Under the pieces are notes generated by a model. That model ran no database searches. It saw only the letters and a list, made by a program, of their open reading frames with translations, and was not told the DNA's origin. Source: Henricia sp. BOLD:AAB3569 (taxonomy: Eukaryota > Echinodermata > Asteroidea > Spinulosida > Echinasteridae). From it: a DNA stretch of 64,000 nucleotides. Numbering within the stretch: the first letter of the stretch is position 1; each line of letters starts with the position of its first letter. Positions 2,971-64,000 of this stretch are shown one piece after another. Position numbers and translations under genes: made by a program. The stretch lies in contig JBBELK010000095.1 in assembly GCA_037783545.1 (NCBI GenBank), positions 1,865,001-1,929,000 on the forward strand. The letters run 5' to 3'.

Positions 2971-3348
2971 ACAGATTCTAAGTTTTTATCCGGCTCTTCA
3001 CATCAAACCATTGTTAACAAACCTGAGATTTTTCAAATTCCAGATCAGATCCCTATTCCAGCAAAGTCAGCCACCGAAGCCAAAGCTGGCAGCAGACTCT
3101 GCCTTGCACTTGTTGTTTGCTTTGGTCACATCCTCCTGATTGCGTCCTGTGTCATGGCTGTCCTGTGGTCTGTTTACTCCGTCCATGGCTTCTGTTGGAG
3201 TGCCTTCTGGGAATGGGCTGCCACTTCCATCATCTCGGTGCTCATCCAGGCTGTCATCATAGACACACTTAAGGCCATCATTGTAACTTGTTTGAAGGGG
3301 CATCGCAACAAAAGGTCTACATCTGTACCTCATGCACTCATCCATTAA
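2971..3348 (+). pseudogene. 3' remnant of a polycystin-1-like gene (copy 0), cut off by the LINE
   Basis: Identical in layout to the end of the last exon of the downstream copies: it begins at codon 453 of the 577-codon protein and runs to the same TAA. Only the C-terminal 125 residues remain, covering the last two membrane segments and the basic tail. Sequence to the left is LINE, so the upstream exons are either beyond the LINE outside the window or lost. As seen, it cannot make the normal protein. The downstream 3' flank, including the UGUANAUA cluster, is intact. Confidence 0.85.
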
Positions 3349-3446
3349 ATTTGAACATTTCAGTTTTAAATCAGTGGCAGAATGATAGCTCATCTGGAAA
3401 AGGAGTTTTGGGATGAAGGTCATGTGACAGAAACATGCCAGGATCT

Positions 3447-3500
3447 TGTATATAGTTGTAAATATTGTGAATTTTGTAAATATTGTAAATATTGTATATA
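3447..3500 (+). promoter_or_regulatory. Cluster of five Pumilio-type UGUANAUA motifs in the 3' flank (copy 0)
   Basis: TGTATATA at 3447 and 3493 and TGTAAATA at 3457, 3475 and 3484, the last three sites spaced exactly 9 bases apart. UGUANAUA is the established consensus bound by PUF (Pumilio) proteins in 3' UTRs, which repress or localise mRNAs, often in germ cells. The cluster begins 99 bases after the stop codon on the sense strand. That it lies in the mature mRNA is inferred; an ATTAAA at 3344-3349, overlapping the stop, could end transcripts earlier. Confidence 0.5.
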
Positions 3501-3770
3501 TTGTTTTGTTGAGAAAAAACATACAAAATATAAAAAAAGGGGGTTGTGTGAAAACAAAATCACACCAACAGTTTAATCCTGCAGGATCCAAAACAGTGGA
3601 AAGGTAATCATTGATATTCCCAAAGTACGAAGACCTATTTCTATTCAGTGCACAATGTTGATCGTCAACTTCAAATCATGGTGAAAGGAATTTTTCTTTA
3701 CAAATTCAGTATGTAATCGTCATCAGTAAATAACAATAATTTGGAATTCCAACTAGGCATGCACAACATG

Positions 3771-3994
3771 GAAGTTTTGACAATTTCACCGAATCCAAAA
3801 TAATCCGCAGTCAACACCAGCAGAATGACACCTCAGTTGCTGAACACTTTAACTGTACTAATCACTTCATTTCTGACATGTCCATACAGAGCCCGAGGCT
3901 CTTGGTCGCCACCCAGACCCTGTTCGACTCAGCAGAGAGAAACTTTGGATTAAACGACTCGGCAGCATCCAGCCACATTGTCTCAACATCCAGG
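3771..3994 (+). pseudogene. Decayed GIY-YIG endonuclease-like retroelement fragment (remnant A)
   Basis: In the frame containing 3836-3877 the translation reads NDTSVAEHFN followed by H-x4-DM, the pattern seen in the C-terminal GIY-YIG endonuclease domains of Penelope-like and related retroelements (VAEHFN, then GH, then DM). A later FGLND (about 3944-3958) resembles the GLN motif near the end of such proteins. No catalytic GIY/YIG motif was found just upstream and there is no start, so this is an old fragment. It repeats in every unit: 13711, 23032, 32984, 42915, 52867 and 62819. Confidence 0.45.
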
Positions 3995-4016
3995 AGGAAA
4001 ATGATTAATGTTTTCA

Positions 4017-4215
4017 TTTTCTTCCTCCCATTTCAACCAACTTCCTTGATTATTTTTAACCCAAATATTCCTCATTTCTGTCTGCCCTTTTATACCCTAT
4101 TTCCCCTTTCTTTCCATCCCCTCCCCAACTAACGTCACCCCATTTCCTCAACCCAAACCCCCTCATTTCCCCAACCCCCCTCTTCCAGTCCTGCTTCCCC
4201 CTAGTCCAATTGCCT
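4017..4215 (+). repeat. Pyrimidine-rich, G-poor tract
   Basis: About 200 bases composed almost entirely of C, T and A with very few G on the plus strand, including runs such as CCCCTCCCCAAC and CCCCAACCCCCC. Strong strand asymmetry of this type can form triplex or R-loop structures and can pause polymerase. It lies about 0.7-0.9 kb downstream of the stop codon. A few substitutions (for example near 23429) separate the units. Confidence 0.6.
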
Positions 4216-4490
4216 CTAATGCTCACAGGCTCTTTTTTTAAAAAGAAACTTCAGCCTAGTCAACTTACCACCAATGTTAGTCTTGGATGTACCGGGAACA
4301 TTACAATAATTTTTCACTTAGACTTCCGATAAACTGCTAAGACTTTGTGTTGTAAGTACACAAATTTAGCAGTTTTATACCATTTAACGTGGAATTGTTA
4401 ACATCCATGCATTTAATGTGTCATAAATACCTGAATTTAATGTCAAAAACCATATTTTTGCTTCTCAGCTTGTCAAAGAATTATGTTTAC
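4216..4490. other. Intergenic AT-rich stretch with a 10-bp inverted repeat
   Basis: No gene seen. AAACTGCTAA and its complement TTAGCAGTTT (about 4331-4375) form a short perfect inverted repeat around a loop of some 25 bases, the type of stem found in MITE interiors. Confidence 0.5.
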
Positions 4491-4856
4491 TGGTCGCCAC
4501 TTATTCTTCTTAATATATGACTCAGGAATCACCAAAAAGTGCTAATAGTTTAAAGAGAAGTTTATTTACAAGTGATAACCATTAAACAATTTCCTTGAAA
4601 ATACTTCAACTTTTTCTGCCAAATCCCACAGGGCGCTTTCACAGGAGGTCAAAAGGTCACGGGTCACTATTGCTCGTCTTCCACAACGGGAGAGGACAAT
4701 AGAGCCAAGAGCCTTTCAGCTTGCAGCCACGTGCATTTCCCCACGTGGCTCTATTGTTATCTGCCATTCTAGAAGACAAGCAATATAGTGACTGTGACCT
4801 TTTGACCCCCTGTGAAAGCGCCCAATAGACTTAACAAGTCATCTCAGTGGCGACCA
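4491..4856. mobile_element. Outer MITE-like element with TGGTCGCCACT ends, carrying a nested MITE
   Basis: Perfect 11-bp terminal inverted repeats: TGGTCGCCACT at 4491-4501 and AGTGGCGACCA at 4846-4856. Inside lies a second inverted-repeat element (4631-4823); without it the outer element is about 173 bp, a normal MITE size. No transposase is present, so it is non-autonomous. No clear target-site duplication was found. In U5 the left end is mutated to TGGCCGCC. Other copies start at 14431, 23752, 33704, 43635, 53587 and 63539. Confidence 0.65.
4631..4823. mobile_element. Inner palindromic MITE, GGGCGCTTTCACAGG ends, arms of about 80 bp
   Basis: The left arm begins GGGCGCTTTCACAGG and the right arm ends CCTGTGAAAGCGCCC; complementarity continues inwards with few mismatches through GTCAAAAGGTCAC, TCACTAT, TGTCTTC and CAATAGAGCCA, nearly to the centre. 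It is 193 bp with a foldback structure and no coding capacity, as expected of a MITE. It sits inside the outer TGGTCGCCACT element, so it inserted later. It recurs in all units, for example 14571-14763 and 23892-24084. Confidence 0.75.
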
Positions 4857-5493
4857 ATGAATGGAATTCATGCCGCAACTTGCTTACACAATCTTTTTTT
4901 CCCTCAACAGGAACAGGAAACATAGAAGTCTTCTGATGATCATGGTTCACTTTTTAAATACAGAATGCCTAATAAAATTGTGCAAAATACAGCGATTTGA
5001 AGATAATTATACGCTTTATTGTATTAAAACTGAACAACAATGAGATATGCAGAAAATCTCAATTATTGCTCATTTGATCAAGTCATGTGACCATGGATGA
5101 AAACTAATGGGGTATTTTTTAACGAAGAAGAATAAAAATGTACATTATTGTTGTGAAGTTGGATGGCAAGATTATCAACCGTGTTGCCAGGAATCGATGG
5201 TGTTTTTTGGGATATAAACTGTTTTATTCTGCAATGTGGCACACAAACAAATTATGAAATATAAAGCCTTTCAAAACATGCCAATAGAGATATTTCGGAA
5301 AGTGAAACACATTTGATTTTCAGAGTAAAAACATTATTTAAAGAAATGGGCACTTGGGTAAAACACTCGTTTTCTATAACCATATCAGCTGATTGTAAAT
5401 AGGGGGAATTAATACTAGAAATAAATAATTTAAACGAAAAATTTGAGTGTCATGGTCTAATTTGTTTACAGCTTCTCATCGTGGCTTAATAAG
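4857..5493. other. Intergenic AT-rich stretch
   Basis: No gene or clear element seen. An AATAAA at 4971-4976 is the first canonical polyadenylation hexamer noticed downstream of the gene remnant, about 1.6 kb after the stop. Short frames here (for example 4861-5043) have no recognisable content. Confidence 0.5.
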
Positions 5494-5639
5494 GGGCAAT
5501 TTCCTGTTTAGAAGAAACATTTGCTTAGTACAAAAACATTTGCTTTGCAAAAAATTGGTAAGCAGTTAAAAACGAATTATGTCTTACAATGAACACAAGT
5601 TCACATACGTTTTTAACTGCTATTCCATTTTTGCAAAGC
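5494..5639. mobile_element. MITE-like element beginning GGGGCAATTTCC with an internal foldback
   Basis: It starts with GGGGCAATTTCC followed by TGTTTAGAAG, related to the GGGGCCAATTTCATAA terminus found elsewhere in the unit. The inner part is a foldback: left arm 5542-5574 (GCTTTGCAAAAA to AGCAGTTAAAAACG) pairs with right arm 5608-5639 (CGTTTTTAACTGCT to TTTTTGCAAAGC). The right boundary of the element is uncertain. Confidence 0.5.
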
Positions 5640-5992
5640 TAGTAAATTTTGTATGCAGTAAAATGTTCTGCTATGAAATCGTCTATTTGAATGAATAATG
5701 CAAACATCCTGGGGCAACTTGAAGTCTTATGTTTTTCTTTATTTTTCCCCTTGTGTTTTCCTGAAGTGTGATGCACCCCAAACAGTGCCCTCTTTCTGTG
5801 ATTTACTGCAATGAAATCTTCAAAGTTGAAAAAGGCTACATTTTATTGGTTTTACATCAAAACGAACAATAGTAATGTCTCAATAAACAAGTAATCCATC
5901 ATATGCAGCAAAGACTAGGCATAAAGTTGTTTAGCAGTCATGGGCTCACGAAAAAAGTTCTTGCGCCAATCTATGCCATAAGTGTCATGTGA
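5640..5992. other. Intergenic stretch without recognised content
   Basis: No gene, RNA or transposon terminus recognised. It contains one of the informative substitutions between units (5962: T in U0 and U3-U5, C in U1 and U2). Confidence 0.5.
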
Positions 5993-6197
5993 CCAGGGGC
6001 CAATTCTGTGATAATTAAATTTTTGCTTTGTAATATCGTTTACCAGTGAAAATTGTATCTCAAATTGTGCTTTAGAAACAGCAGAATATTAATGAACATC
6101 GCACACGATTTTGGCCGGTCACCCATTTTGGCAATATAAAGCAAATAAATCCTGTACTAGTACTTTTAATAAGCAAATGTTTGGAATTGGCCCCAGG
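5993..6197. mobile_element. MITE-like element with CCAGGGGCCAATTC ends
   Basis: The left end CCAGGGGCCAATTC (5993-6006) and right end GAATTGGCCCCAGG (6184-6197) are inverted repeats matching at 13 of 14 positions. The element is 205 bp, AT-rich inside and has no coding capacity. The terminus belongs to the same GGGGCCAATT group as the ends at 5494, 6971-6987 and 7983. No target duplication was established. Confidence 0.55.
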
Positions 6198-6376
6198 TGT
6201 CTAATGAGTATTTATGAAAGGAAACTCGGATTATTTTAATTCTTCATACATAGTCTTGGAATAAGCAAAAGTATGAAACTTTCATCATAAAAGAAGTGCT
6301 TATCCATAGTGACCAGTATTCAGATTGACTAGTTTCAATGTTGCTTGGCAGTGGGTCTTGATGGCAGGAGCTATTG
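6198..6376. other. Short intergenic gap between MITEs
   Basis: No feature recognised between the right end of the 205-bp element and the outer CRE-ended element. Confidence 0.5.
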
Positions 6377-6514
6377 AGTGACGTCACTTAAGGAGATCAA
6401 AAAAAACCAAGGTTGTATTGAATCAAGAAAACTGGCCATATTGGAACATTTGTCATGGTGTCTTCGTAATTTGAGCCAGAGAACCAATGATAGCAGAATC
6501 TCTAGTACATCCTT

Positions 6515-6527
6515 GTTGCTTAGCAAC
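6515..6527. promoter_or_regulatory. Perfect 13-bp palindrome resembling an RFX X-box
   Basis: GTTGCTTAGCAAC is a perfect inverted repeat of GTTGC around a TTA-like centre and is close to the X-box pattern (GTNRCC, short spacer, RGYAAC) bound by RFX factors, which drive ciliary genes. A further half-site, TTAGCAAC, follows at 6539-6546. It lies about 2.4 kb upstream of the gene start inside a transposon-derived segment, so function is speculative. Confidence 0.3.
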
Positions 6528-6553
6528 TGTATTTTCCTTAGCAACAAAGCCCA

Positions 6554-6697
6554 GCAGCCGATTTCACGAAACGTACGCAGTTGCGTAAGCCCACGTGCGC
6601 AATGTTTTATTGCGTAAGTCGCGCAACAATTTAGCGACGATAACACGCAAGCTGTGGGGCTTGCGCAAGCTGCGCACTCTTTCGTGAAATCGGCTGC
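6554..6697. mobile_element. Inner MITE with perfect 18-bp ends
   Basis: GCAGCCGATTTCACGAAA (6554-6571) is the exact reverse complement of 6680-6697. The element is 144 bp, rich in TTGCG/CGCAA motifs that fold back on themselves, and non-coding. The perfect ends and its position inside the more diverged CRE-ended element show that it arrived later. One base just inside the left end (6573) is G in U0 and U3 and T in the other units. Confidence 0.7.
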
Positions 6698-6846
6698 AAC
6701 ATGAATATTTATTTCAAACAAATCTAAACCGGAAAGACCAAATGCCTGCAGGTTATACTTGGATAAGGTTCTCCATGGGGTACTATTCCAAAATGGGCCA
6801 TTATCAATGTAGGTTTTGATAACAAATACAATTAAGTGACGTCACT

Positions 6847-6993
6847 AAAATAAAATAAAAGGCCGTTGCCTATACGTTGCATGACATCGAGAAACCTGGT
6901 GATGTCAAAAACTTATTTCAGATCAACTAGCAGCAGACCACCGCCCAAGCATTTTCTGCTAAACGGCGTTATGAAATTGGCCCCAGGCTGGAG
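6847..6993. mobile_element. Right end of a GGGGCCAATTTCATAA-type MITE
   Basis: TTATGAAATTGGCCCCAGG (6969-6987) is the reverse complement of the common GGGGCCAATTTCATAA terminus, preceded by TCTGCTAAAC (complement of the GTTTAGCAGA inner motif). The opposite end of this copy was not identified, so the left limit given here is only the start of the gap. Confidence 0.4.
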
Positions 6994-7135
6994 TCTATAG
7001 TGTAATCCGAGCAACATTTGGTGAGCCCGCCCTCTTGTGATTATTCCATTGTTACTGCGGTGTATTTCTATTGTGACGTCATGTAAATACCTTGGAGATA
7101 CACCGCAGTTTTCTTTCGTCGGATTAGTCTATAGG
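6994..7135. repeat. Imperfect 142-bp palindromic element
   Basis: The ends CTATAGTGTAATCCGA (6994-7009) and TCGGATTAGTCTATAG (7120-7135) are inverted repeats with 14 of 16 matches, and an inner pair, ACTGCGGTGTAT (7054-7065) and ATACACCGCAGT (7098-7109), is perfect. The inner hairpin loop holds a TGACGTCA palindrome (7074-7081). It may be a small MITE. In U1 the element is broken in that loop by the 631-bp deletion. Confidence 0.55.
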
Positions 7136-7460
7136 ATCCCTGGCCCTGTGAATGTGGGAAGTTGTATATCGGCGAGACTGGAAGGGACCTATACCCACCA
7201 GACTCGAAGAACAGAGAAGACTATGACAAATCAGCCATTGTCAAGCACTCCGTACAGTACAGCGAGGACATATCATCAACTGGGAAACCGCACAACTGAT
7301 AGCGCCCATCGACAGATGGCACCCAAGACGCATCAGGGAAGCCATCGAAATACACAAGCACGACACAGTACCCCAATACATTGGCTTCGACATCAGCAAT
7401 ATCTGGCACTCTCCATTAACCAACCAGATCGATGGATCACCTACACCCTAGGTCCTCCCC
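7130..7460 (+). pseudogene. Decayed Penelope-like GIY-YIG endonuclease fragment (remnant B)
   Basis: From 7147 one frame reads CECGKLYIGETGR and, a little later, DKSAIVKHS, the classic YIG core of the GIY-YIG endonuclease of Penelope-like elements. This frame meets a stop at 7297. The next frame carries the domain's continuation: INWETAQLI from about 7275, then RWHPRRIREAIEI, GFDISNIWHSPL and a stop near 7450. So the domain is split by at least one frameshift, with a further short disturbance before 7147. No reverse transcriptase precedes it. It is a dead retroelement 3' fragment, absent from U1. Equivalent spans start at 26391, 36343, 46274 and 56226. Confidence 0.7.
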
Positions 7461-8389
7461 CCACGACAGCCACTGCATACCACAATGACACGTACCAGTG
7501 AGCACACCACGGCCAGGCACAGAATTAAGAGCATAACCACGCCTCCTCAACCGTACCCAAGCCATTCAGCTTGAGTGAACACATTGTACACTGAATGCCC
7601 GCAACCATACTTATGGGTGCACCCAAGTAAACAGGAAGAGATCCGTGCGCGAGCTCATGAATATTTTGTATGCCTCAAGTTCTTCTTTATTGGGGAGAGT
7701 TGCGAGCTGAATGAGGGTGGTCTTGTGTATAATATGACCATCGTCGCGATGTTGGGTATTTTTTCTTGCAACCATAAACATTGTAGGCACTGTAGCTCCT
7801 AAAAGTGGCCCTATTTTGCTAGTAGCGTATGTGCCTTTGTTCCAAAATGGATGCTGGTCTGATTAGCAAGTTTCACTGCTGCAGGGGTTGTTTTGTTTCA
7901 AGTGGAAATTAGTGAATAAAAGTGACGGATTACCCCCATGAAATTGAACAGAATTGAAAAGATGAGACTTCAGTGAGTATTCCGGGGGCAATTTCATAAA
8001 GCTGTTTAGCAAAAATATTTGCTTAAATCAAAAATTTGTCTGCTTTATATATATGGGTTATAAAAATGGTTTAATTTCTTTTAAATACATTATTAGGGGT
8101 CGTTTAAAGTTGTCAACATTTTCAGTTCTACAAATAGTCGAAGACGGCCTGTGCGCTGTAAAATGTTGACATTTCATGCTAGGGCTATGCCTACTATATA
8201 CCGACACAAACAAAATTTTATTATAAAGTATGCCTATGGGGATCGAACTGTGACCATGGTGACTGCCCCCAATTACCAAGTTTGCAAACGTGGCATTTAA
8301 TCTCTGTTCGTGTCTCAGCTCACAGTCACAGCCATGTAAACGAAACTTGAGTTTTGACATTGAATTAATTAATCGCGATCCCAAAAGAA
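7461..8389. other. Intergenic stretch, with another GGGGGCAATTTCATAA terminus
   Basis: No host gene recognised. CGGGGGCAATTTCATAAAGC (7983-8002) with GTTTAGCA after it is a further end of the MITE family seen at 6987. A TATATATATG run lies at about 8046-8055. A 204-codon minus-strand frame (8058-8672) covers the right part but resembles nothing known and overlaps the likely promoter. U3 lacks 12 bases here (near 37061). Confidence 0.5.
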
Positions 8390-8530
8390 AAAGGAGGCGG
8401 GGCTGCCAGGGAGTCTCGGAGAGCGAAATCTGTCGATTCCAAGTCGTTGGAATGGAAAACAAAAGATCGTTCGACCGGCTGACGTCATTCCGCCCGCGCA
8501 CGTAGGTACGTGGCCCGCACCCGGCCCTGT
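8390..8530 (+). promoter_or_regulatory. GC-rich, CpG-rich stretch with GC box and CRE: probable promoter region of gene copy 1
   Basis: In an otherwise AT-rich intergenic region this block is GC-rich. It carries a GC box (GGAGGCGGGGC, 8393-8403), a perfect CRE palindrome TGACGTCA (8480-8487) and CCGCCCGCGCACG just after. A second CpG-rich patch lies at 8815-8860, about 100 bases before the first ATG. No TATA box at a fitting distance was identified and the transcription start is unknown. Equivalent blocks start at 17699, 27651, 37591, 47534 and 57486. Confidence 0.4.
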
Positions 8531-8959
8531 CCGTCTTCAAGGAAGTAACAAAAGGACTGCTAACCAGTCTATTCCCATAATTCCTCGCGAAAAGTATAGA
8601 AAGTCCACACTTTTTACTAGGCGTGCTCATGGAGTTCAACAAAAAGCAAAGAGAGGGTAAAGTTATCTTCACAAATTAACTAGTTTATTTGGATTTAATA
8701 GATTTAACCTAGCCCAGGAATGAAGTCTTCATGAAGCCAACGTTATACAGAGTTTTGAACGCCGAGTATAATTTTGCCAAGGAGATGGCATTCTCGCATC
8801 ACGCGTTGTCAAGCAAAAGAAAGTCGCGTTCGTCGCGCACGCGTCTTCGGCGGTAGGAAAATCGAATGTTGTTCTTACAATGTGACACTTTCGTTCATTG
8901 CTTATGCAGTGTTGCACGTGTTTGATTTGTTCCTATGAAATATTCTACAAAGTACTAGA

Positions 8960-11900
8960 ATGCGAATTTTGCTGACAATTGCGATATTTTTGGGAGCTTC
9001 GGTCATCAAGACTGCAAGGTGGGTTCTGGTTTATATTTTTAACATATTTTTCCTTGCATTATTTTCATTAGGCCTAGGTCTACCATGATTACTAGTTAGG
9101 TTAACATGGTTAAATTAACTTTAACCTTCAGGCAAGTTAGGTTGGCAGATTCATCAAATTTTCAAATTGCTCAAATCACATGAACTTTTTTAAAATTTAT
9201 TTTTACAATTGTAAAGTAAAGACTAGAGTAAACAAAAACAAACTGCAGTGATCAACACGAAACATTCTCCCAAAGAAATAGTAGGGGCCTAGGTTCTAAA
9301 ACTAGTCACAATTTGGAGGCACAAAAATGAATATAAAAAGGCTCTCATTGCAGATTGTGAATCTGCCTAGCCTAGTACCAGCCTACTGAGGATTGTTAAA
9401 TGTTGATGACTTGTCCCAACCACCAAGTTAACATTAATACTGGGTCTAGGCCCAGTAAGTTTTTGTTTTACTATTTTCTATATAGGCCTAGGCCTAAAAT
9501 AATTCAGTTAGACCTGAACAACCAAGTTTCCAAATAAAACAAAAAGGCCTAAATATTTTAGCGACAGCCAATCCTTTGTAATGACAATTGTATCCTTCTT
9601 TGCAGTTCCCAGACCCTGAGCACCATCTCGGGTCCCTTCCAGGGCAATCCTGCCATCTCTGCCCCGACTAGTGGTGACTGCCTCTCAACTGTTGATTGGC
9701 ATGATATCATCTTCATCACTGCAGTCCCGATAGCTGCTGGCTTTGGACTGCTGCTGCTTGCTGCCTTTCTCAAAGATCTCAGACAGGCTTGCAAGGTAGG
9801 CCGACAAGTCAACAAGTTTGTAAACTCACTGGCATTAAACAAATTCAACTTGGCTTTTTTATAGTCAGGATTCATTGTATTTAGTAATAGTAATATGATT
9901 TTTCCTTATATCTTTCCTTCAAACAGAGCAATGCAGCTCCTGGGTCCATCATAGATAATCGGGCTGAAAATGAATGCACCTATATCATAGACATAAACTA
10001 CGGCGGCCGTTCAAAATGGGGTTCATTCCTGCGTTGGTGTGTCTGGCACAAATCATGTCGCAGAATCGGAAGCACGTGTTTTGTGAGACTCCAAGGAACT
10101 ATTGGCTTCAGTGACTGGTAAGTTGATCAAGAAACTATTACATTCATTAAAAACAGATTACATGTTTGCACAACTTTTAAAAACAGGAACAACAGCATTA
10201 CATAACTAAAGAATCATGTCGATAAACTGCTTCGTAGAAATTTCAATCACATAGATGCAGTAATACTTCAGAAAAACTGAAAAATCCATGCAAGTTTTTG
10301 TTGTGGTTGCGTACCATTGCTATACATGTATCAACACTTTTAGTCCGATTTTTCTTGTCATAATTTTGGTTAACCTGCAAATGTTGTATTGGGGCTTTAA
10401 GAGGACCCTGTTATTTTGTTAAGGTGATAATTGTATTTCGTTATTGTTCGTTCTCTAGGATGATTTTTCGTCTGTTTCATGGACTGAATTCGGAACAGCA
10501 AACCCTAACAACACCTCAGTCCATCGGGGAAATTGTAACCGCGCAGGTACGCTTGGTGAAGATGCATCGACCGATTTTTGGATACCGCTTCCATACCAGT
10601 ATTGGAGCCCGTCTGCGAGGAATCATCAACAGGGCATGTGATACGTAAGTTTAGCTTCAATTTTTTCGTTTCTCCTATCTTGAACTATAGGATTTCACAA
10701 TCTCGTGGTTTTGACCTATAAATGGTATATTTGTCTACTTTTACTTGTGAAATAACGTGTGGGGGTTTTTCCTGAATGGTTGGCCTTGTTTAGTATATAT
10801 ACGCCAATCTGAGAGCTGAAGTCATGTTCCGTGTACGTCTGCCATAACTGGGAGCCATCCAGTGCCATGAACTGTGGGTTTTGTGTTGATGATAAGCTGT
10901 TACATTATGTTGTCACTTTCAACAATTTTGTGCGTTTATTTGCTTGCGAAGCCTATACGCGTACGGTTTGTGCGCTGTTCGATTTAACAACAACACAGAG
11001 CACCAAGTTCATGGCAGTGGATTCGTCTATACATGACTCTGAAATGACGTCACTTCCTACAAATTGTCACGTGCCTAAGGATCTTGAGTGTAATAGGCTG
11101 CGATGTATTTCGAACAAATTTCAAGCAAGATGCTCGTACTTGAATGCGTTATAGTACCATTTTCCCCGATACAAAGATGGCATCTGTGAGAGTGGTCAAT
11201 AGACACCGTCTCGAATAGCGGCCACCTTGTGGGGTAACTTTTTATATTTAAATTGAAAAGTTGATATAAAATTACAGATTTATAAGAAGTACAGATTTGA
11301 TAAAATAAAACCTCAAATTTTGAAGCGGGAAAGATTAAAGATTTTCCTAGAAAATACTTATAAAAATGTTCAGACAGTCTCATGTGTTTTGTGCTCAAAA
11401 TCTGATAAAGCCATTACTATAACTACTTAATTCTTTCCTTTAAATTTAGTCAATAATGTAAACACAAAATGTGCAACCATTCACGTCCTCAAGCAACAAA
11501 GAAACTGCCCTATACAAGATGGCAGCTATTCGATACGGTCTACATGTATATGGTGGTTCCGTACAAGATGTGAATTGCTGTAATTTTGACATTGTCCCTG
11601 ATGGCACTCTGTGAATTTGCGAAATATTGAATGATTACCTTTATGAACATTTTAAGAAAACTTATTCAGATTTTTTCGATCTAACTTAACAAAAAAACGA
11701 GAAAAAACCCAACACATTTATATGTACCACCTTGGATAACAAAATATTTGACCACCTACAACCTGACAACAAAAATAACATCAAAAATGTTTGTTAATGT
11801 CTCATTTAAATCCTTTTAAGAAGTCTTATAGCAATATTTGATGCCATGTAAGCCATCTGATCTAATGACTATTGTCTATAAGACCAAACATGATAAACAT

Positions 11901-13303
11901 AATATTGAGGGCATTATGATAAGCAATACCCACGTGAGTTGAGCATTATAGTTTTATATTTTGCACTTTGCACTCTAGTTTTACAGTTTATTAGTGCTAC
12001 GGCTCCCATTGCTTATATCTCATGATAATCATCAGCCCAGTTGCTGCTGAAGAGTAATGGTTTTTAATAAAACATTGTAATTCAATATTTTTTTCCAAGG
12101 CTGTACCTTTCAGAAATATGCAATAATTACATTTGTGAACATTTTAAAAACCATGACTTGATAATTTTGTCTATTTTTTTCTTGACATACTATAGTGAGA
12201 TCCACAATATTGATGTCAAGGATACGAAGACCAAGGAGCATTACAGCATCCATTACAGCAAGTACTGTGGTCCAAGCAGCGACGGCCTCTCATGTAATGA
12301 TAACGGAATCGCCACCAAGCTGCCACCGTTCCTGTTGCCGAAACCACCAAAAGCCAAGGCCAACTACATCTCCCACTTTTTCAAGAACGCACATACGTTC
12401 ACATCTACATTTATGCCTCGATATGAGGGCAACTTGACCGGTGTACGGCACGTCACCTGTCTGTTTGCCTGCATGAGTTACCCCATGCTTGCAGTGCAGT
12501 GGATATCAAAGCCACTGTTGGCTCCATCCCTTTGGGAGTCTGTGGTGCTCAGCCCCATGGACTATGACATCACCTTGGGGATGGTCATCAAGGCAGCAGG
12601 AGTCAGTGCTGTACTCCTGCCCGTCTTCTTCGCCACTGAAGTCTTGGGACGCGTCACTCCGACGATATACTCTTTATACAGACATACTCCTCTGGGACAG
12701 CCTGCTAAATGCAACGTCTTAAATAACAACTCTAATACTCTTACAGTAATTGAAATGCAATCCGATGAGGAGCAACCATCAACTAGTCAGGTTTTACCCG
12801 TTACGACTGATTATAATCCAATTCTTTCCACAGATTCTATAGTCATTGAAATGCCATCAGACGAGGAGCAATTATCAACTAGTCAGGTTTTACCCGTTAC
12901 AACTAATTCGAATGCAATTCTTTCTACAGATTCTAAGTTTTTATCCGGCTCTTCACATCAAACCATTGTTAACAAACCTGAGATTTTTCAAATTCCAGAT
13001 CAGATCCCTATTCCAGCAAAGTCAGCCACCGAAGCCAAAGCTGGCAGCAGACTCTGCCTTGCACTTGTTGTTTGCTTTGGTCACATCCTCCTGATTGCGT
13101 CCTGTGTCATGGCTGTCCTGTGGTCTGTTTACTCCGTCCATGGCTTCTGTTGGAGTGCCTTCTGGGAATGGGCTGCCACTTCCATCATCTCGGTGCTCAT
13201 CCAGGCTGTCATCATAGACACACTTAAGGCCATCATTGTAACTTGTTTGAAGGGGCATCGCAACAAAAGGTCTACATCTGTACCTCATGCACTCATCCAT
13301 TAA
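8960..13303 (+). CDS. Short polycystin-1-like membrane protein, gene copy 1 (5 exons, 577 aa)
   Basis: Coding exons: 8960-9018, 9606-9795, 9927-10117, 10459-10644, 12196-13303. All introns are GT-AG and the phases join without a break. Seen in the protein: signal peptide (about 1-19), short ectodomain, membrane segment (54-75), then a divergent PLAT-like region (about 101-232; STCFVRLQG, LTTPQSIGEI), membrane segments at about 294-313, 335-358, 495-519 and 534-559, and a basic tail. Basic residues after segments 1, 3 and 5 fit a lumenal N-terminus and cytosolic C-terminus. This order matches polycystin-1 from its first transmembrane helix to its fifth. GPS and REJ regions, the large ectodomain and the six-helix channel part are absent. 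A 32-residue duplication (393-423, 425-455; VIEM-x-SDEEQ) lies in the loop between segments 3 and 4. This copy has Ile at residue 92; others have Arg. Family call is by motif, not by search. Confidence 0.68.
9019..9605 (+). other. Intron 1 (copy 1)
   Basis: Donor AAG|GTGGGT and acceptor TTCTTTGCAG. It holds several AGGCCT/AGGCCTA runs (for example 9484-9498), a word frequent in echinoderm-type introns, but no gene or mobile element boundary was recognised. Confidence 0.65.
10859..11020. mobile_element. Intronic foldback element, CCAGTGCCATGAACT ends
   Basis: CCAGTGCCATGAACT (10859-10873) and AGTTCATGGCAGTGG (11006-11020) are inverted repeats with 14 of 15 matches, with patchy pairing inwards (GTGTTG against CAACAC). 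Pairing may also extend outwards (AGTCATGT near 10820 against ACATGACT near 11031), so the true limits may be wider. A TGACGTCA lies just outside at 11045-11052. Confidence 0.5.
11201..11541. mobile_element. Intronic foldback element with about 28-bp arms
   Basis: AGACACCGTCTCGAATAGCG plus GCCACCTTGT (11201-11230) is an imperfect reverse complement of 11514-11541 (ACAAGATGGCAGCTATTCGA, then TACGGTCT). The core TCGAATAGC and flanking blocks match. The arms are separated by about 280 AT-rich bases, consistent with a MITE. Present at the same place in intron 4 of all copies. Confidence 0.5.
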
Positions 13304-13401
13304 ATTTGAACATTTCAGTTTTAAATCAGTGGCAGAATGATAGCTCATCTGGAAAAGGAGTTTTGGGATGAAGGTCATGTGACAGAAACATGCCAGGATC
13401 T

Positions 13402-13455
13402 TGTATATAGTTGTAAATATTGTGAATTTTGTAAATATTGTAAATATTGTATATA
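13402..13455 (+). promoter_or_regulatory. UGUANAUA (Pumilio-type) cluster after gene copy 1
   Basis: Five sites at 13402, 13412, 13430, 13439 and 13448, starting 99 bases after the stop. Same arrangement as the copy 0 cluster; here it follows a complete gene, so it is a candidate 3' UTR control region. Confidence 0.5.
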
Positions 13456-16400: not shown

Positions 16401-17017
16401 TCTTCGTAATTTGAGCCAGAGAACCAATGATAGCAGAATCTCTAGTACATCCTTGTTGCTTAGCAACTGTATTTTCCTTAGCAACAAAGCCCAGCAGCCG
16501 ATTTCACGAAACTTACGCAGTTGCGTAAGCCCACGTGCGCAATGTTTTATTGCGTAAGTCGCGCAACAATTTAGCGACGATAACACGCAAGCTGTGGGGC
16601 TTGCGCAAGCTGCGCACTCTTTCGTGAAATCGGCTGCAACATGAATATTTATTTCAAACAAATCTAAACCGGAAAGACCAAATGCCTGCAGGTTATACTT
16701 GGATAAGGTTCTCCATGGGGTACTATTCCAAAATGGGCCATTATCAATGTAGGTTTTGATAACAAATACAATTAAGTGACGTCACTAAAATAAAATAAAA
16801 GGCCGTTGCCTATACGTTGCATGACATCGAGAAACCTGGTGATGTCAAAAACTTATTTCAGATCAACTAGCAGCAGACCACCGCCCAAGCATTTTCTGCT
16901 AAACGGCGTTATGAAATTGGCCCCAGGCTGGAGTCTATAGTGTAATCCGAGCAACATTTGGTGAGCCCGCCCTCTTGTGATTATTCCATTGTTACTGCGG
17001 TGTATTTCTATTGTGAC

Positions 17018-17019
17018 GA
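17018..17019. other. Junction of the 631-bp deletion in U1
   Basis: GTGACG is joined directly to AATGAGGG. In U0 these flanks are at 7078 and 7710, so bases equivalent to 7079-7709 are missing, removing the right half of the 142-bp palindrome and all of GIY-YIG remnant B. Only a single G of microhomology exists at the junction, as in end-joining. All other complete units retain the segment. Confidence 0.9.
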
Positions 17020-18268
17020 ATGAGGGTGGTCTTGTGTATAATATGACCATCGTCGCGATGTTGGGTATTTTTTCTTGCAACCATAAACATTGTAGGCACT
17101 GTAGCTCCTAAAAGTGGCCCTATTTTGCTAGTAGCGTATGTGCCTTTGTTCCAAAATGGATGCTGGTCTGATTAGCAAGTTTCACTGCTGCAGGGGTTGT
17201 TTTGTTTCAAGTGGAAATTAGTGAATAAAAGTGACGGATTACCCCCATGAAATTGAACAGAATTGAAAAGATGAGACTTCAGTGAGTATTCCGGGGGCAA
17301 TTTCATAAAGCTGTTTAGCAAAAATATTTGCTTAAATCAAAAATTTGTCTGCTTTATATATATGGGTTATAAAAATGGTTTAATTTCTTTTAAATACATT
17401 ATTAGGGGTCGTTTAAAGTTGTCAACATTTTCAGTTCTACAAATAGTCGAAGACGGCCTGTGCGCTGTAAAATGTTGACATTTCATGCTAGGGCTATGCC
17501 TACTATATACCGACACAAACAAAATTTTATTATAAAGTATGCCTATGGGGATCGAACTGTGACCATGGTGACTGCCCCCAATTACCAAGTTTGCAAACGT
17601 GGCATTTAATCTCTGTTCGTGTCTCAGCTCACAGTCACAGCCATGTAAACGAAACTTGAGTTTTGACATTGAATTAATTAATCGCGATCCCAAAAGAAAA
17701 AGGAGGCGGGGCTGCCAGGGAGTCTCGGAGAGCGAAATCTGTCGATTCCAAGTCGTTGGAATGGAAAACAAAAGATCGTTCGACCGGCTGACGTCATTCC
17801 GCCCGCGCACGTAGGTACGTGGCCCGCACCCGGCCCTGTCCGTCTTCAAGGAAGTAACAAAAGGACTGCTAACCAGTCTATTCCCATAATTCCTCGCGAA
17901 AAGTATAGAAAGTCCACACTTTTTACTAGGCGTGCTCATGGAGTTCAACAAAAAGCAAAGAGAGGGTAAAGTTATCTTCACAAATTAACTAGTTTATTTG
18001 GATTTAATAGATTTAACCTAGCCCAGGAATGAAGTCTTCATGAAGCCAACGTTATACAGAGTTTTGAACGCCGAGTATAATTTTGCCAAGGAGATGGCAT
18101 TCTCGCATCACGCGTTGTCAAGCAAAAGAAAGTCGCGTTCGTCGCGCACGCGTCTTCGGCGGTAGGAAAATCGAATGTTGTTCTTACAATGTGACACTTT
18201 CGTTCATTGCTTATGCAGTGTTGCACGTGTTTGATTTGTTCCTATGAAATCTTCTACAAAGTACTAGA

Positions 18269-22610: not shown

Positions 22611-22708
22611 ATTTGAACATTTCAGTTTTAAATCAGTGGCAGAATGATAGCTCATCTGGAAAAGGAGTTTTGGGATGAAGGTCATGTGACAGAAACATGC
22701 CAGGATCT

Positions 22709-22762
22709 TGTATATAGTTGTAAATATTGTGAATTTTGTAAATATTGTAAATATTGTATATA
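22709..22762 (+). promoter_or_regulatory. UGUANAUA (Pumilio-type) cluster after gene copy 2
   Basis: Five sites in the same arrangement as after copy 1, starting 99 bases past the stop. Confidence 0.5.
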
Positions 22763-52445: not shown

Positions 52446-52543
52446 ATTTGAACATTTCAGTTTTAAATCAGTGGCAGAATGATAGCTCATCTGGAAAAGG
52501 AGTTTTGGGATGAAGGTCATGTGACAGAAACATGCCAGGATCT

Positions 52544-52597
52544 TGTATATAGTTGTAAATATTGTGAATTTTGTAAATATTGTAAATATTGTATATA
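52544..52597 (+). promoter_or_regulatory. UGUANAUA (Pumilio-type) cluster after gene copy 5
   Basis: Five sites in the same arrangement as after copy 1. Confidence 0.5.
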
Positions 52598-55500: not shown

Positions 55501-58055
55501 AACCAAGGTTGTATTGAATCAAGAAAACTGGCCATATTGGAACATTTGTCATGGTGTCTTCGTAATTTGAGCCAGAGAACCAATGATAGCAGAATCTCTA
55601 GTACATCCTTGTTGCTTAGCAACTGTATTTTCCTTAGCAACAAAGCCCAGCAGCCGATTTCACGAAACTTACGCAGTTGCGTAAGCCCACGTGCGCAATG
55701 TTTTATTGCGTAAGTCGCGCAACAATTTAGCGACGATAACACGCAAGCTGTGGGGCTTGCGCAAGCTGCGCACTCTTTCGTGAAATCGGCTGCAACATGA
55801 ATATTGATTTCAAACAAATCTAAACCGGAAAGACCAAATGCCTGCAGGTTATACTTGGATAAGGTTCTCCATGGGGTACTATTCCAAAATGGGCCATTAT
55901 CAATGTAGGTTTTGATAACAAATACAATTAAGTGACGTCACTAAAATAAAATAAAAGGCCGTTGCCTATACGTTGCATGACATCGAGAAACCTGGTGATG
56001 TCAAAAACTTATTTCAGATCAACTAGCAGCAGACCACCGCCCAAGCATTTTCTGCTAAACGGCGTTATGAAATTGGCCCCAGGCTGGAGTCTATAGTGTA
56101 ATCCGAGCAACATTTGGTGAGCCCGCCCTCTTGTGATTATTCCATTGTTACTGCGGTGTATTTCTATTGTGACGTCATGTAAATACCTTGGAGATACACC
56201 GCAGTTTTCTTTCGTCGGATTAGTCTATAGGATCCCTGGCCCTGTGAATGTGGGAAGTTGTATATCGGCGAGACTGGAAGGGACCTATACCCACCAGACT
56301 CGAAGAACAGAGAAGACTATGACAAATCAGCCATTGTCAAGCACTCCGTACAGTACAGCGAGGACATATCATCAACTGGGAAACCGCACAACTGATAGCG
56401 CCCATCGACAGATGGCACCCAAGACGCATCAGGGAAGCCATCGAAATACACAAGCACGACACAGTACCCCAATACATTGGCTTCGACATCAGCAATATCT
56501 GGCACTCTCCATTAACCAACCAGATCGATGGATCACCTACACCCTAGGTCCTCCCTCCACGACAGCCACTGCATGCCACAATGACACGTACCAGTGAGCA
56601 CACCACGGCCAGGCACAGAATTAAGAGCATAACCACGCCTCCTCAACCGTACCCAAGCCATTCAGCTTGAGTGAACACATTGTACACTGAATGCCCGCAA
56701 CCATACTTATGGGTGCACCCAAGTAAACAGGAAGAGATCCGTGCGCGAGCTCATGAATATTTTGTATGCCTCAAGTTCTTCTTTATTGGGGAGAGTTGCG
56801 AGCTGAATGAGGGTGGTCTTGTGTATAATATGACCATCGTCGCGATGTTGGGTATTTTTTCTTGCAACCATAAACATTGTAGGCACTGTAGCTCCTAAAA
56901 GTGGCCCTATTTTGCTAGTAGCGTATGTGCCTTTGTTCCAAAATGGATGCTGGTCTGATTAGCAAGTTTCACTGCTGCAGGGGTTGTTTTGTTTCAAGTG
57001 GAAATTAGTGAATAAAAGTGACGGATTACCCCCATGAAATTGAACAGAATTGAAAAGATGAGACTTCAGTGAGTATTCCGGGGGCAATTTCATAAAGCTG
57101 TTTAGCAAAAATATTTGCTTAAATCAAAAATTTGTCTGCTTTATATATATGGGTTATAAAAATGGTTTAATTTCTTTTAAATACATTATTAGGGGTCGTT
57201 TAAAGTTGTCAACATTTTCAGTTCTACAAATAGTCGAAGACGGCCTGTGCGCTGTAAAATGTTGACATTTCATGCTAGGGCTATGCCTACTATATACCGA
57301 CACAAACAAAATGTTATTATAAAGTATGCCTATGGGGATCGAACTGTGACCATGGTGACTGCCCCCAATTACCAAGTTTGCAAACGTGGCATTTAATCTC
57401 TGTTCGTGTCTCAGCTCACAGTCACAGCCATGTAAACGAAACTTGAGTTTTGACATTGAATTAATTAATCGCGATCCCAAAAGAAAAAGGAGGCGGGGCT
57501 GCCAGGGAGTCTCGGAGAGCGAAATCTGTCGATTCCAAGTCGTTGGAATGGAAAACAAAAGATCGTTCGACCGGCTGACGTCATTCCGCCCGCGCACGTA
57601 GGTACGTGGCCCGCACCCGGCCCTGTCCGTCTTCAAGGAAGTAACAAAAGGACTGCTAACCAGTCTATTCCCATAATTCCTCGCGAAAAGTATAGAAAGT
57701 CCACACTTTTTACTAGGCGTGCTCATGGAGTTCAACAAAAAGCAAAGAGAGGGTAAAGTTATCTTCACAAATTAACTAGTTTATTTGGATTTAATAGATT
57801 TAACCTAGCCCAGGAATGAAGTCTTCATGAAGCCAACGTTATACAGAGTTTTGAACGCCGAGTATAATTTTGCCAAGGAGATGGCATTCTCGCATCACGC
57901 GTTGTCAAGCAAAAGAAAGTCGCGTTCGTCGCGCACGCGTCTTCGGCGGTAGGAAAATCGAATGTTGTTCTTACAATGTGACACTTTCGTTCATTGCTTA
58001 TGCAGTGTTGCACGTGTTTGATTTGTTCCTATGAAATCTTCTACAAAGTACTAGA

Positions 58056-61000
58056 ATGCGAATTTTGCTGACAATTGCGATATTTTTGGGAGCTTTGGTC
58101 ATCAAGACTGCAAGGTGGGTTCTGGTTTATATTTTTAACATATTTTTCCTTGCATTATTTTCATTAGGCCTAGGTCTACCATGATTACTAGTTAGGTTAA
58201 CATGGTTAAATTAACTTTAACCTTCAGGCAAGTTAGGTTGGCAGATTCATCAAATTTTCAAATTGCTCAAATCACATGAACTTTTTTAAAATTTATTTTT
58301 ACAATTGTAAAGTAAAGACTAGAGTAAACAAAAACAAACTGCAGTGATCAACACGAAACATTCTCCCAAAGAAATAGTAGGGGCCTAGGTTCTAAAACTA
58401 GTCACAATTTGGAGGCACAAAAATGAATATAAAAAGGCTCTCATTGCAGATTGTGAATCTGCCTAGCCTAGTACCAGCCTACTGAGGATTGTTAAATGTT
58501 GATGACTTGTCCCAACCACCAAGTTAACATTAATACTGGGTCTAGGCCCAGTAAGTTTTTGTTTTACTATTTTCTATATAGGCCTAGGCCTAAAATAATT
58601 CAGTTAGACCTGAACAACCAAGTTTCCAAATAAAACAAAAAGGCCTAAATATTTTAGCGACAGCCAATCCTTTGTAATGACAATTGTATCCTTCTTTGCA
58701 GTTCCCAGACCCTGAGCACCATCTCGGGTCCCTTCCAGGGCAATCCTGCCATCTCTGCCCCGACTAGTGGTGACTGCCTCTCAACTGTTGATTGGCATGA
58801 TATCATCTTCATCACTGCAGTCCCGATAGCTGCTGGCTTTGGACTGCTGCTGCTTGCTGCCTTTCTCAAAGATCTCAGACAGGCTTGCAAGGTAGGCCGA
58901 CAAGTCAACAAGTTTGTAAACTCACTGGCATTAAACAAATTCAACTTGGCTTTTTTATAGTCAGGATTCATTGTATTTAGTAATAGTAATATGATTTTTC
59001 CTTATATCTTTCCTTCAAACAGAGCAATGCAGCTCCTGGGTCCATCAGAGATAATCGGGCTGAAAATGAATGCACCTATATCATAGACATAAACTACGGC
59101 GGCCGTTCAAAATGGGGTTCATTCCTGCGTTGGTGTGTCTGGCACAAATCATGTCGCAGAATCGGAAGCACGTGTTTTGTGAGACTCCAAGGAACTATTG
59201 GCTTCAGTGACTGGTAAGTTGATCAAGAAACTATTACATTCATTAAAAACAGATTACATGTTTGCACAACTTTTAAAAACAGGAACAACAGCATTACATA
59301 ACTAAAGAATCATGTCGATAAACTGCTTCGTAGAAATTTCAATCACATAGATGCAGTAATACTTCAGAAAAACTGAAAAATCCATGCAAGTTTTTGTTGT
59401 GGTTGCGTACCATTGCTATACATGTATCAACACTTTTAGTCCGATTTTTCTTGTCATAATTTTGGTTAACCTGCAAATGTTGTATTGGGGCTTTAAGAGG
59501 ACCCTGTTATTTTGTTAAGGTGATAATTGTATTTCGTTATTGTTCGTTCTCTAGGATGATTTTTCGTCTGTTTCATGGACTGAATTCGGAACAGCAAACC
59601 CTAACAACACCTCAGTCCATCGGGGAAATTGTAACCGCGCAGGTACGCTTGGTGAAGATGCATCGACCGATTTTTGGATACCGCTTCCATACCAGTATTG
59701 GAGCCCGTCTGCGAGGAATCATCAACAGGGCATGTGATACGTAAGTTTAGCTTCAATTTTTTCGTTTCTCCTATCTTGAACTAGGATTTCACAATCTCGT
59801 GGTTTTGACCTATAAATGGTATATTTGTCTACTTTTACTTGTGAAATAACGTGTGGGGGTTTTTCCTGAATGGTTGGCCTTGTTTAGTATATATACGCCA
59901 ATCTGAGAGCTGAAGTCATGTTCCGTGTACGTCTGCCATAACTGGGAGCCATCCAGTGCCATGAACTGTGGGTTTTGTGTTGATGATAAGCTGTTACATT
60001 ATGTTGTCACTTTCAACAATTTTGTGCGTTTATTTGCTTGCGAAGCCTATACGCGTACGGTTTGTGCGCTGTTCGATTTAACAACAACACAGAGCACCAA
60101 GTTCATGGCAGTGGATTCGTCTATACATGACTCTGAAATGACGTCACTTCCTACAAATTGTCACGTGCCTAAGGATCTTGAGTGTAATAGGCTGCGATGT
60201 ATTTCGAACAAATTTCAAGCAAGATGCTCGTACTTGAATGCGTTATAGTACCATTTTCCCCGATACAAAGATGGCATCTGTGAGAGTGGTCAATAGACAC
60301 CGTCTCGAATAGCGGCCACCTTGTGGGGTAACTTTTTATATTTAAATTGAAAAGTTGATATAAAATTACAGATTTATAAGAAGTACAGATTTGATAAAAT
60401 AAAACCTCAAATTTTGAAGCGGGAAAGATTAAAGATTTTCCTAGAAAATACTTATAAAAATGTTCAGACAGTCTCATGTGTTTTGTGCTCAAAATCTGAT
60501 AAAGCCATTACTATAACTACTTAATTCTTTCCTTTAAATTTAGTCAATAATATAAACACAAAATGTGCAACCATTCACGTCCTCAAGCAACAAAGAAACT
60601 GCCCTATACAAGATGGCAGCTATTCGATACGGTCTACATGTATATGGTGGTTCCGTACAAGATGTGAATTGCTGTAATTTTGACATTGTCCCTGATGGCA
60701 CTCTGTGAATTTGCGAAATATTGAATGATTACCTTTATGAACATTTTAAGAAAACTTATTCAGATTTGTTCGATCTAACTTAACAAAAAAACGAGAAAAA
60801 ACCCAACACATTTATATGTACCACCTTGGATAACAAAATATTTGACCACCTACAACCTGACAACAAAAATAACATCAAAAATGTTTGTTAATGTCTCATT
60901 TAAATCCTTTTAAGAAGTCTTATAGCAATATTTGATGCCATGTAAGCCATCTGATCTAATGACTATTGTCTATAAGACCAAACATGATAAACATAATATT

Positions 61001-62397
61001 GAGGGCATTATGATAAGCAATACCCACGTGAGTTGAGCATTATAGTTTTATATTTTGCACTTTGCACTCTAGTTTTACAGTTTATTAGTGCTACGGCTCC
61101 CATTGCTTATATCTCATGATAATCATCAGCCCAGTTGCTGCTGAAGAGTAATGGTTTTTAATAAAACATTGTAATTCAATATTTTTTTCCAAGGCTGTAC
61201 CTTTCAGAAATATGCAATAATTACATTTGTGAACATTTTAAAAACCATGACTTGATAATTTTGTCTATTTTTTTCTTGACATACTATAGTGAGATCCACA
61301 ATATTGATGTCAAGGATACGAAGACCAAGGAGCATTACAGCATCCATTACAGCAAGTACTGTGGTCCAAGCAGCGACGGCCTCTCATGTAATGATAACGG
61401 AATCGCCACCAAGCTGCCACCGTTCCTGTTGCCGAAACCACCAAAAGCCAAGGCCAACTACATCTCCCACTTTTTCAAGAACGCACATACGTTCACATCT
61501 ACATTTATGCCTCGATATGAGGGCAACTTGACCGGTGTACGGCACGTCACCTGTCTGTTTGCCTGCATGAGTTACCCCATGCTTGCAGTGCAGTGGATAT
61601 CAAAGCCACTGTTGGCTCCATCCCTTTGGGAGTCTGTGGTGCTCAGCCCCATGGACTATGACATCACCTTGGGGATGGTCATCAAGGCAGCAGGAGTCAG
61701 TGCTGTACTCCTGCCCGTCTTCTTCGCCACTGAAGTCTTGGGACGCGTCACTCCGACGATATACTCTTTATACAGACATACTCCTCTGGGACAGCCTGCT
61801 AAATGCAACGTCTTAAATAACAACTCTAATACTCTTACAGTAATTGAAATGCAATCCGATGAGGAGCAACCATCAACTAGTCAGGTTTTACCCGTTACGA
61901 CTGATTATAATCCAATTCTTTCCACAGATTCTATAGTCATTGAAATGCCATCAGACGAGGAGCAATTATCAACTAGTCAGGTTTTACCCGTTACAACTAA
62001 TTCGAATGCAATTCTTTCTACAGATTCTAAGTTTTTATCCGGCTCTTCACATGAAACCATTGTTAACAAACCTGAGATTTTTCAAATTCCAGATCAGATC
62101 CCTATTCCAGCAAAGTCAGCCACCGAAGCCAAAGCTGGCAGCAGACTCTGCCTTGCACTTGTTGTTTGCTTTGGTCACATCCTCCTGATTGCGTCCTGTG
62201 TCATGGCTGTCCTGTGGTCTGTTTACTCCGTCCATGGCTTCTGTTGGAGTGCCTTCTGGGAATGGGCTGCCACTTCCATCATCTCGGTGCTCATCCAGGC
62301 TGTCATCATAGACACACTTAAGGCCATCATTGTAACTTGTTTGAAGGGGCATCGCAACAAAAGGTCTACATCTGTACCTCATGCACTCATCCATTAA
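58056..62397 (+). CDS. Short polycystin-1-like membrane protein, gene copy 6
   Basis: Exons 58056-58114, 58702-58891, 59023-59213, 59555-59740, 61290-62397. The most divergent protein of the array, with two private changes: Ser to Leu at residue 14 in the signal peptide (TCG to TTG) and Gln to Glu at residue 464 in the cytosolic loop before the fourth membrane segment. Leu in the hydrophobic core should keep the signal peptide functional. Reading frame, splice sites and all membrane segments are intact. Confidence 0.68.
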
Positions 62398-64000
62398 ATT
62401 TGAACATTTCAGTTTTAAATCAGTGGCAGAATGATAGCTCATCTGGAAAAGGAGTTTTGGGATGAAGGTCATGTGACAGAAACATGCCAGGATCTTGTAT
62501 ATAGTTGTAAATATTGTGAATTTTGTAAATATTGTAAATATTGTATATATTGTTTTGTTGAGAAAAAACATACAAAATATAAAAAAGGGGGTTGTGTGAA
62601 AACAAAATCACACCAACAGTTTAATCCTGCAGGATCCAAAACAGTGGAAAGGTAATCATTGATATTCCCAAAGTACGAAGACCTATTTCTATTCAGTGCA
62701 CAATGTTGATCGTCAACTTCAAATCATGGTGAAAGGAATTTTTCTTTACAAATTCAGTATGTAATCGTCATCAGTAAATAACAATAATTTGGAATTCCAA
62801 CTAGGCATGCACAACATGGAAGTTTTGACAATTTCACCGAATCCAAAATAATCCGCAGTCAACACCAGCAGAATGACACCTCAGTTGCTGAACACTTTAA
62901 CTGTACTAATCACTTCATTTCTAACATGTCCATACAGAGCCCGAGGCTCTTGGTCGCCACCCAGACCCTGTTCGACTCAGCAGAGAGAAACTTTGGATTA
63001 AACGACTCGGCAGCATCCAGCCACATTGTCTCAACATCCAGGAGGAAAATGATTAATGTTTTCATTTTCTTCCTCCCATTTCAACCAACTTCCTTGATTA
63101 TTTTTAACCCAAATATTCCTCATTTCTGTCTGCCCTTTTATACCCTATTTCCCCTTTCTTTCCATCCCCTCCCCAACTAACGTCACCCCATTTCCTCAAC
63201 CCAAACCCCCTCATTTCCCCAACCCCCCTCTTCCAGTCCTGCTTCCCCCTAGTCCAATTGCCTCTAATGCTCACAGGCTCTTTTTTTAAAAAGAAACTTC
63301 AGCCTAGTCAACTTACCACCAATGTTAGTCTTGGATGTACCGGGAACATTACAATAATTTTTCACTTAGACTTCCGATAAACTGCTAAGACTTTGTGTTG
63401 TAAGTACACAAATTTAGCAGTTTTATACCATTTAACGTGGAATTGTTAACATCCATGCATTTAATGTGTCATAAATACCTGAATTTAATGTCAAAAACCA
63501 TATTTTTGCTTCTCAGCTTGTCAAAGAATTATGTTTACTGGTCGCCACTTATTCTTCTTAATATATGACTCAGGAATCACCAAAAAGTGCTAATAGTTTA
63601 AAGAGAAGTTTATTTACAAGTGATAACCATTAAACAATTTCCTTGAAAATACTTCAACTTTTTCTGCCAAATCCCACAGGGCGCTTTCACAGGAGGTCAA
63701 AAGGTCACGGGTCACTATTGCTCGTCTTCCACAACGGGAGAGGACAATAGAGCCAAGAGCCTTTCAGCTTGCAGCCACGTGCATTTCCCCACGTGGCTCT
63801 ATTGTTATCTGCCATTCTAGAAGACAAGCAATATAGTGACTGTGACCTTTTGACCCCCTGTGAAAGCGCCCAATAGACTTAACAAGTCATCTCAGTGGCG
63901 ACCAATGAATGGAATTCATGCCGCAACTTGCTTACACAATCTTTTTTTCCCTCAACAGGAACAGGAAACATAGAAGCCTTCTGATGATCATGGTTCACTT
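62398..64000 (+). repeat. Tandem unit U6, first 1603 bp, running off the right edge
   Basis: Same 3' flank as other units: UGUANAUA cluster 62496-62549, GIY-YIG remnant A 62819-63042, pyrimidine tract 63065-63263 and the nested MITE pair 63539-63904 (inner 63679-63871). The window ends before the next gene would begin (expected about 4 kb further on), so the array continues at least this far. Confidence 0.93.
62496..62549 (+). promoter_or_regulatory. UGUANAUA (Pumilio-type) cluster after gene copy 6
   Basis: Five sites in the same arrangement as after copy 1. Confidence 0.5.

Follow-up and report, generated by a model that had tools for sequence, protein, structure and literature searches.

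Arrays of dozens of near-identical gene copies are familiar for rRNA and histone genes and are rare for genes encoding membrane proteins; near-identical multi-copy arrays are also known from sex-linked or germline amplicons. For coral genomes, tandem expansions by non-allelic recombination have been proposed, and that study describes the gene repertoire as diverse, in contrast to the near-identical copies reported here (PMC12314368). The sea urchin SpREJ proteins include members of the PKD1 family without the 11-transmembrane (TM) form. Among them, SpREJ7 has six TM segments, SpREJ2 has two, SpREJ1, 8 and 9 have one and SpREJ10 has none (PMC1934368). The protein described here would resemble them in this respect, but it gave no Pfam match to the REJ domain (PF02010), which is the criterion for SpREJ proteins. 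In a limited literature search, no publication describing tandemly arrayed polycystin genes came up.

The closest architecture is the TM1-PLAT-TM2-5 part of polycystin-1, represented by human PKD1 (PDB 6a70) and by the PKD1 genes on contigs C1 and C370 of this genome. In both proteins, TM1 appears to be followed by a PLAT-like block, then by TM2-TM3, a variable linker and TM4-TM5. Unlike polycystin-1, the array protein lacks the ectodomain, the GPS, the REJ domain and the TM6-11 channel half, its PLAT is unrecognisable by Pfam and its gene is multi-copy. Because the GPS, the ectodomain and the channel half are absent, we do not class it as a polycystin-1. The best explanation of the locus as a whole, to which we assign a probability of roughly 0.6, is that a short membrane protein derived from PKD1 has been multiplied in an array that serves dosage.

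A tandem array of a five-exon gene

The window, i.e. the whole stretch of 64,000 nucleotides that was analysed, corresponds to positions 1865001-1929000 of contig C95 in an assembly of 740.7 Mb and 2104 contigs. Self-comparison revealed a direct (head-to-tail) repeat up to the right edge of the window, with 99.56-99.85% identity between its long matching stretches, which contains six complete five-exon copies and a broken seventh copy at the left edge (Table 1). The exon-1 ATG codons, at the starts of the six genes in Table 1, are spaced by 9309, 9952, 9940, 9943 and 9952 bp; the 9309-bp unit is 643 bp shorter, chiefly through a single 631-bp deletion. An earlier note had claimed at least six near-identical tandem copies, which the self-comparison confirmed, the real number being far higher (at least 52 on C95). 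Its five-exon model also stood, with 577 codons in all six complete window copies and GT-AG borders in all 24 introns. The statement that every copy keeps an open frame applies to these six, but neither to the seventh copy, which is cut by a retrotransposon, nor to two of the 21 complete C95 copies that were read.

Table 1. Features of the window (window coordinates)
Feature	Position	Strand	Remark
Non-LTR retrotransposon, 5' part (PHD finger and endonuclease)	1..2970	-	Inserted into gene copy
ORF1-like frame of non-LTR retrotransposon	1957-2925	-	
Tandem array	2971..64000	+	Belongs to a C95 array that spans at least 538 kb
Seventh gene copy (broken), reduced to the 3' part of exon 5	2971..3348	+	Sequence comparison
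Gene copy 1 from start to stop codon, 577 aa	8960..13303	+	Spliced frame
Copy 1 exons	8960-9018, 9606-9795, 9927-10117, 10459-10644, 12196-13303	+	
96-bp in-frame double repeat (32-aa repeat), exon-5 linker	12745..12935	+	Present in all six window copies
Promoter-like CpG-rich block 5' of copy 2	17600..18268	+	CpG o/e 1.27 (copy 2 unit)
Gene copy 2, 577 aa	18269..22610	+	Spliced frame
Gene copy 3, 577 aa	28221..32562	+	Spliced frame
Gene copy 4, 577 aa	38161..42502	+	Spliced frame
Gene copy 5, 577 aa	48104..52445	+	Spliced frame
Gene copy 6, 577 aa	58056..62397	+	Spliced frame

Three replacements account for all coding differences among the six window copies. The longest open stretch comprises 410 codons, compared with at most 245 in 200 simulated units, and the exons are richer in GC than the introns (0.42-0.54 versus 0.31-0.35). 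Thus, the open frame is not due to chance. Use of an alternative upstream acceptor at 12100 would yield a protein of 609 instead of 577 aa. The CpG o/e of the 669 bases 5' of the copy 2 ATG, measured for this unit only, exceeds the values of 0.44-0.70 in six larger regions of the units; the block is nearly identical in the other window units, and some other 400-base windows in the units also reach about 1.0-1.2. There is no TATA match in the block, which holds what we take to be a CRE-like sequence. The first array copy on C95 has a divergent upstream sequence (16.8% differences over 660 bases). A 205-codon open frame on the minus strand (8058-8675), which has no Pfam match and whose length was reached in one of 500 simulations, lies over a CpG-rich promoter-like block. 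Frames on the plus strand at 7037-7501, likewise without a Pfam match, recall what is presumably the GIY-YIG tail of a Penelope-like element. An Rfam search found nothing, and no relatives were found by a search among viral contigs.

Beyond the window, the array begins near position 1,652,384 of C95 and matches persist to the contig end at 2,190,701. It therefore extends over at least 538 kb and is open rightward, the span being set by these two points with the sequence between them read in part. In a search of the genome with the exon-5 protein, 111 of 457 candidates were scored and 118 matches listed. Among these, at least 93 have a full-length, stop-free exon 5, of which 50 lie on C95 and 43 on seven other contigs (C159, 28; C1094, 5; C1491, 3; C708, C585 and C69, 2 each; C293, 1). 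On C95, exon 5 is disrupted in two additional copies, in one by a 17-bp deletion and in the other by the retrotransposon, so that this contig carries at least 52 copies. The remaining matches listed are five partial ones, seven loci (14 rows) without part of the linker and six members of a subfamily of about 65% identity (C175, two; C886, three; C667, one). Some of the contigs bearing copies may be alternative haplotypes. On C159 the copies lie on both strands and include a run spaced near 9,025 bp rather than 9,950 bp. The linker part missing from the seven loci, which lie on C708, C159, C585 and C293, corresponds to about residues 197-275 of the exon-5 protein. A second tandem repeat is present on the minus strand of C95 at 1620001-1630000 (locus L023), where two copies are spaced by 2,069 bp; it is made up of degenerate pieces of exon 5, which contain stops as well as frameshifts and are about 89% identical to the array.

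Most copies are intact. Among the 21 complete C95 copies that were read, 19 are intact, and the other two are broken by a stop at codon 179 and by the 17-bp deletion. Outside these 21, one copy is split by the retrotransposon and one was covered in part only. One of the intact copies has a changed first base of exon 4 and shows two amino acid differences (residues 148 and 467) that are absent from the other intact copies. The retrotransposon is 5,275 bp long in total (window 1-2970 plus locus L018 from position 7696), and its insertion was accompanied by the loss of about 1.8 kb of the array unit. The near identity of the units might suggest an assembly artefact, or an extrachromosomal circle that was read as a tandem array. 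We regard this as very improbable because the copies bear private substitutions, indels and insertions, the left array end passes into other DNA, the edge copies are more diverged and matching exon 5 sequences are present on other contigs.

Probable relationship to polycystin-1

Pfam detected no PLAT, GPS, REJ or channel domain in the spliced protein, a PDB sequence search with it gave no match and Pfam found no PLAT in the C175 protein. In a PKD1 gene from the same genome, this library did detect PLAT (E value 2.6e-20). The PLAT profile search (PF01477) that the earlier note had proposed as a check was thus negative for the spliced protein; genome-wide, it gave 26 matches (43 candidates), none of them on array contigs. 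A genome-wide search with PF08016 gave 22 matches (39 candidates), none on the contigs listed with the array gene. The array protein stops after TM5 and has no TM6-11 polycystin channel domain. A dense cluster of PLAT-domain matches on a single strand was observed at C40:1796538-1834068. Single-sequence AlphaFold2 gave a poor model of exon 5 (pLDDT 45.7), in which two pairs of long helices surround a disordered linker and some shorter helices are present.

By comparing profiles with hhalign, the family (array, C175 and C69) could be aligned to PKD1 (C1, human and C370) with an E value of 0.009 over 243 collinear columns, in the order TM1 end, PLAT (exons 3-4), TM2 and TM3. The score was matched by three of 400 shuffles (none of 60 in the first set), the five best of which span at most 109 columns, and reversed PKD1 scored 21.9 compared with 29.0 for the true profile. 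Two smaller PKD1 profiles had been tried before this one, which must be kept in mind in judging the resulting P of about 0.01. The smaller profiles, which combined human PKD1 either with a PKD1L2-like sequence or with C370 (20 of 100 shuffles as good), were not significant. The same applies to the larger profile when compared with TM2-TM3 by itself (14 of 200) and to pairwise comparisons of the whole protein, in which 142 of 1000 and 67 of 500 shuffles were as good. In pairwise comparison with human PKD1, the exon-5 TM2-TM3 block was the only tested block above the shuffles (one of 1000 as good; three of 500 in a repeat), and for TM2-TM3 of the C175 protein five of 500 shuffles were as good. 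The corresponding numbers for TM2-TM3 were 175 and 68 of 500 with C1 PKD1, and 65 and 22 of 500 with C370. TM2-TM3 was in register in all six comparisons (as in 12.6-39% of shuffles), PLAT in three of six (0.4-3.4%) and TM4-TM5 in two of four (10.6-19.6%).

The array gene and the C1 PKD1 gene also have features of gene structure in common. T209, whose codon is interrupted by the phase-2 intron 4, aligns to a tryptophan that is likewise interrupted by a phase-2 intron of the C1 gene. Moreover, both genes encode TM2-TM5 in a single open stretch. Introns played no part in building the profile alignment that matched these positions. The C370 PKD1 gene has no intron at the aligned position of intron 4.

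It is also conceivable that the family has no kinship with polycystin-1 and represents a lineage-specific multi-TM protein, the likeness being due to convergent hydrophobicity. The lack of Pfam and PDB matches, the mostly non-significant pairwise tests and the failure of hydropathy to call TM2 fit this idea. The collinear profile alignment, the match in intron position and phase and the register of TM2-TM3 in six of six comparisons speak against it, and we consider it distinctly unlikely. Descent from PKD1 is likely, not proven. Of the descriptions "polycystin-1-like" and "short form" in the earlier note, the first survives solely as distant descent, based on the profile comparison, the register and the shared phase-2 intron, as there is no Pfam PLAT, whereas "short form" was apt, the protein having neither ectodomain nor channel half. 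According to the PKD1-derived reading, loss of the large ectodomain exons and of the channel half would have reduced a polycystin-1 gene to five exons that encode a short membrane protein. This protein would begin with a signal peptide and about 33 residues outside the cell, followed by TM1, an intracellular PLAT-like block that is strongly degenerate, TM2-TM3, a variable linker and TM4-TM5, after which comes the stop.

Divergence among copies and selection

The copies are locally homogenised. Over 20 copies, the mean gene divergence is 0.127% in the core and 0.439% at the left edge, and 0.578% between core and edge. This local sharing, together with the more diverged edge, is the pattern expected from unequal crossing-over. 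The repeat unit, which is about 10 kb long and includes a CpG-rich promoter-like block, may have been multiplied by unequal crossing-over (non-allelic homologous recombination), and the same process would keep the copies nearly identical.

Within the array, no constraint at the protein level was detected: the coding variants among 18 intact copies, i.e. without the copy with the changed exon-4 base, are 16 replacement and two silent ones (P 0.27 for the ratio versus neutral). In a comparison of 14 copies, variable sites were rarer in coding sequence than in introns (16 of 1734 versus 71 of 2608 sites, P 2e-5). However, this contrast need not mean selection on the protein, because silent sites likewise vary less than introns (P 0.003).

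Between subfamilies, TM2-TM3 is under purifying selection. The C175 paralog has five exons, GT-AG introns of phases 2/0/2/2 and a 608-aa frame, with exons 3 and 4 differing in length from those of the array by +18 and -3. The omega between array and C175 is 0.72 overall (P 0.011) and 0.31 for TM2-TM3 (P 0.0002), and is not significant in the other five segments, including TM4-TM5 with 1.64. Between array and C69 it is 0.52 (P 0.055). The dS between array and C175 is 0.084 in exon 1-2 and 0.059 in TM4-TM5, compared with 0.353 in TM2-TM3, and the very low values suggest gene conversion between the subfamilies. The exon-5 linker is hypervariable between array and C175.

These data bear on a passive, satellite-like expansion, in which unequal exchange multiplied a 10-kb block with the gene as a passenger that is intact only since the copies are young. 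The ratio of 16 replacement to two silent variants within the array, the group means of between-copy divergence of at most 0.58%, the two broken copies among the 21 fully read plus the one split by the retrotransposon and the degenerate exon-5 repeats left of the array are all in line with it. On the other hand, the one C175-subfamily member that was read is still open at a dS of about 0.3 with constrained TM2-TM3, and the full-length, stop-free exon-5 matches listed on seven other contigs also speak against a mere passenger. We therefore consider passive expansion unlikely, while granting it some weight.

Topology, likely role and significance

A hydropathy scan called the signal peptide, TM1, TM3, TM4 and TM5. 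It did not call TM2, for which the alignment to PKD1 suggests a true membrane helix, so that the protein probably has five TM segments. About 33 residues separate the signal peptide from TM1, leaving room for neither a GPS nor a large ectodomain, and 30 of the 33 mature N-terminal residues are identical in a paralog of 61-65% identity. Judging from PKD1 topology as generally described and as given in PMC1934368, the outside part would comprise these residues plus short loops, and the TM3-TM4 linker, the fastest-changing part, is predicted to lie inside the cell.

The tiny, conserved outside part and the variable linker inside argue against recognition of ligands or gametes and for a uniform product. 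The gamete-recognition role suggested by the earlier note is thus unlikely. The same outside part weighs against an amplicon, sex-linked or germline, whose gene evolves fast in a gamete or drive role. This explanation is improbable, although the presumed CRE-like sequence in the promoter block and the occurrence of near-identical arrays in such settings speak in its favour. The likeliest role of the PKD1-derived protein is a putative dosage role, which fits the data but is unproven: the array gene is presumably expressed, and the many identical copies would allow a single protein to be produced in large amounts. This protein might associate or compete with complexes of full-length PKD1 or PKD2.

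Tentatively, and at slightly less than even odds, the family may be a new class: a five-TM derivative of polycystin-1 without channel and ectodomain, encoded by about a hundred near-identical genes in several arrays that concerted evolution keeps uniform, and hence an rDNA-like supply of an animal membrane protein. Short-read assemblies would probably collapse such an array. If expressed, the gene would be a natural experiment on the function of polycystin-1 TM1-TM5 when the receptor head and the channel are missing, and it would also allow dosage and concerted evolution to be studied in a gene that encodes a protein.
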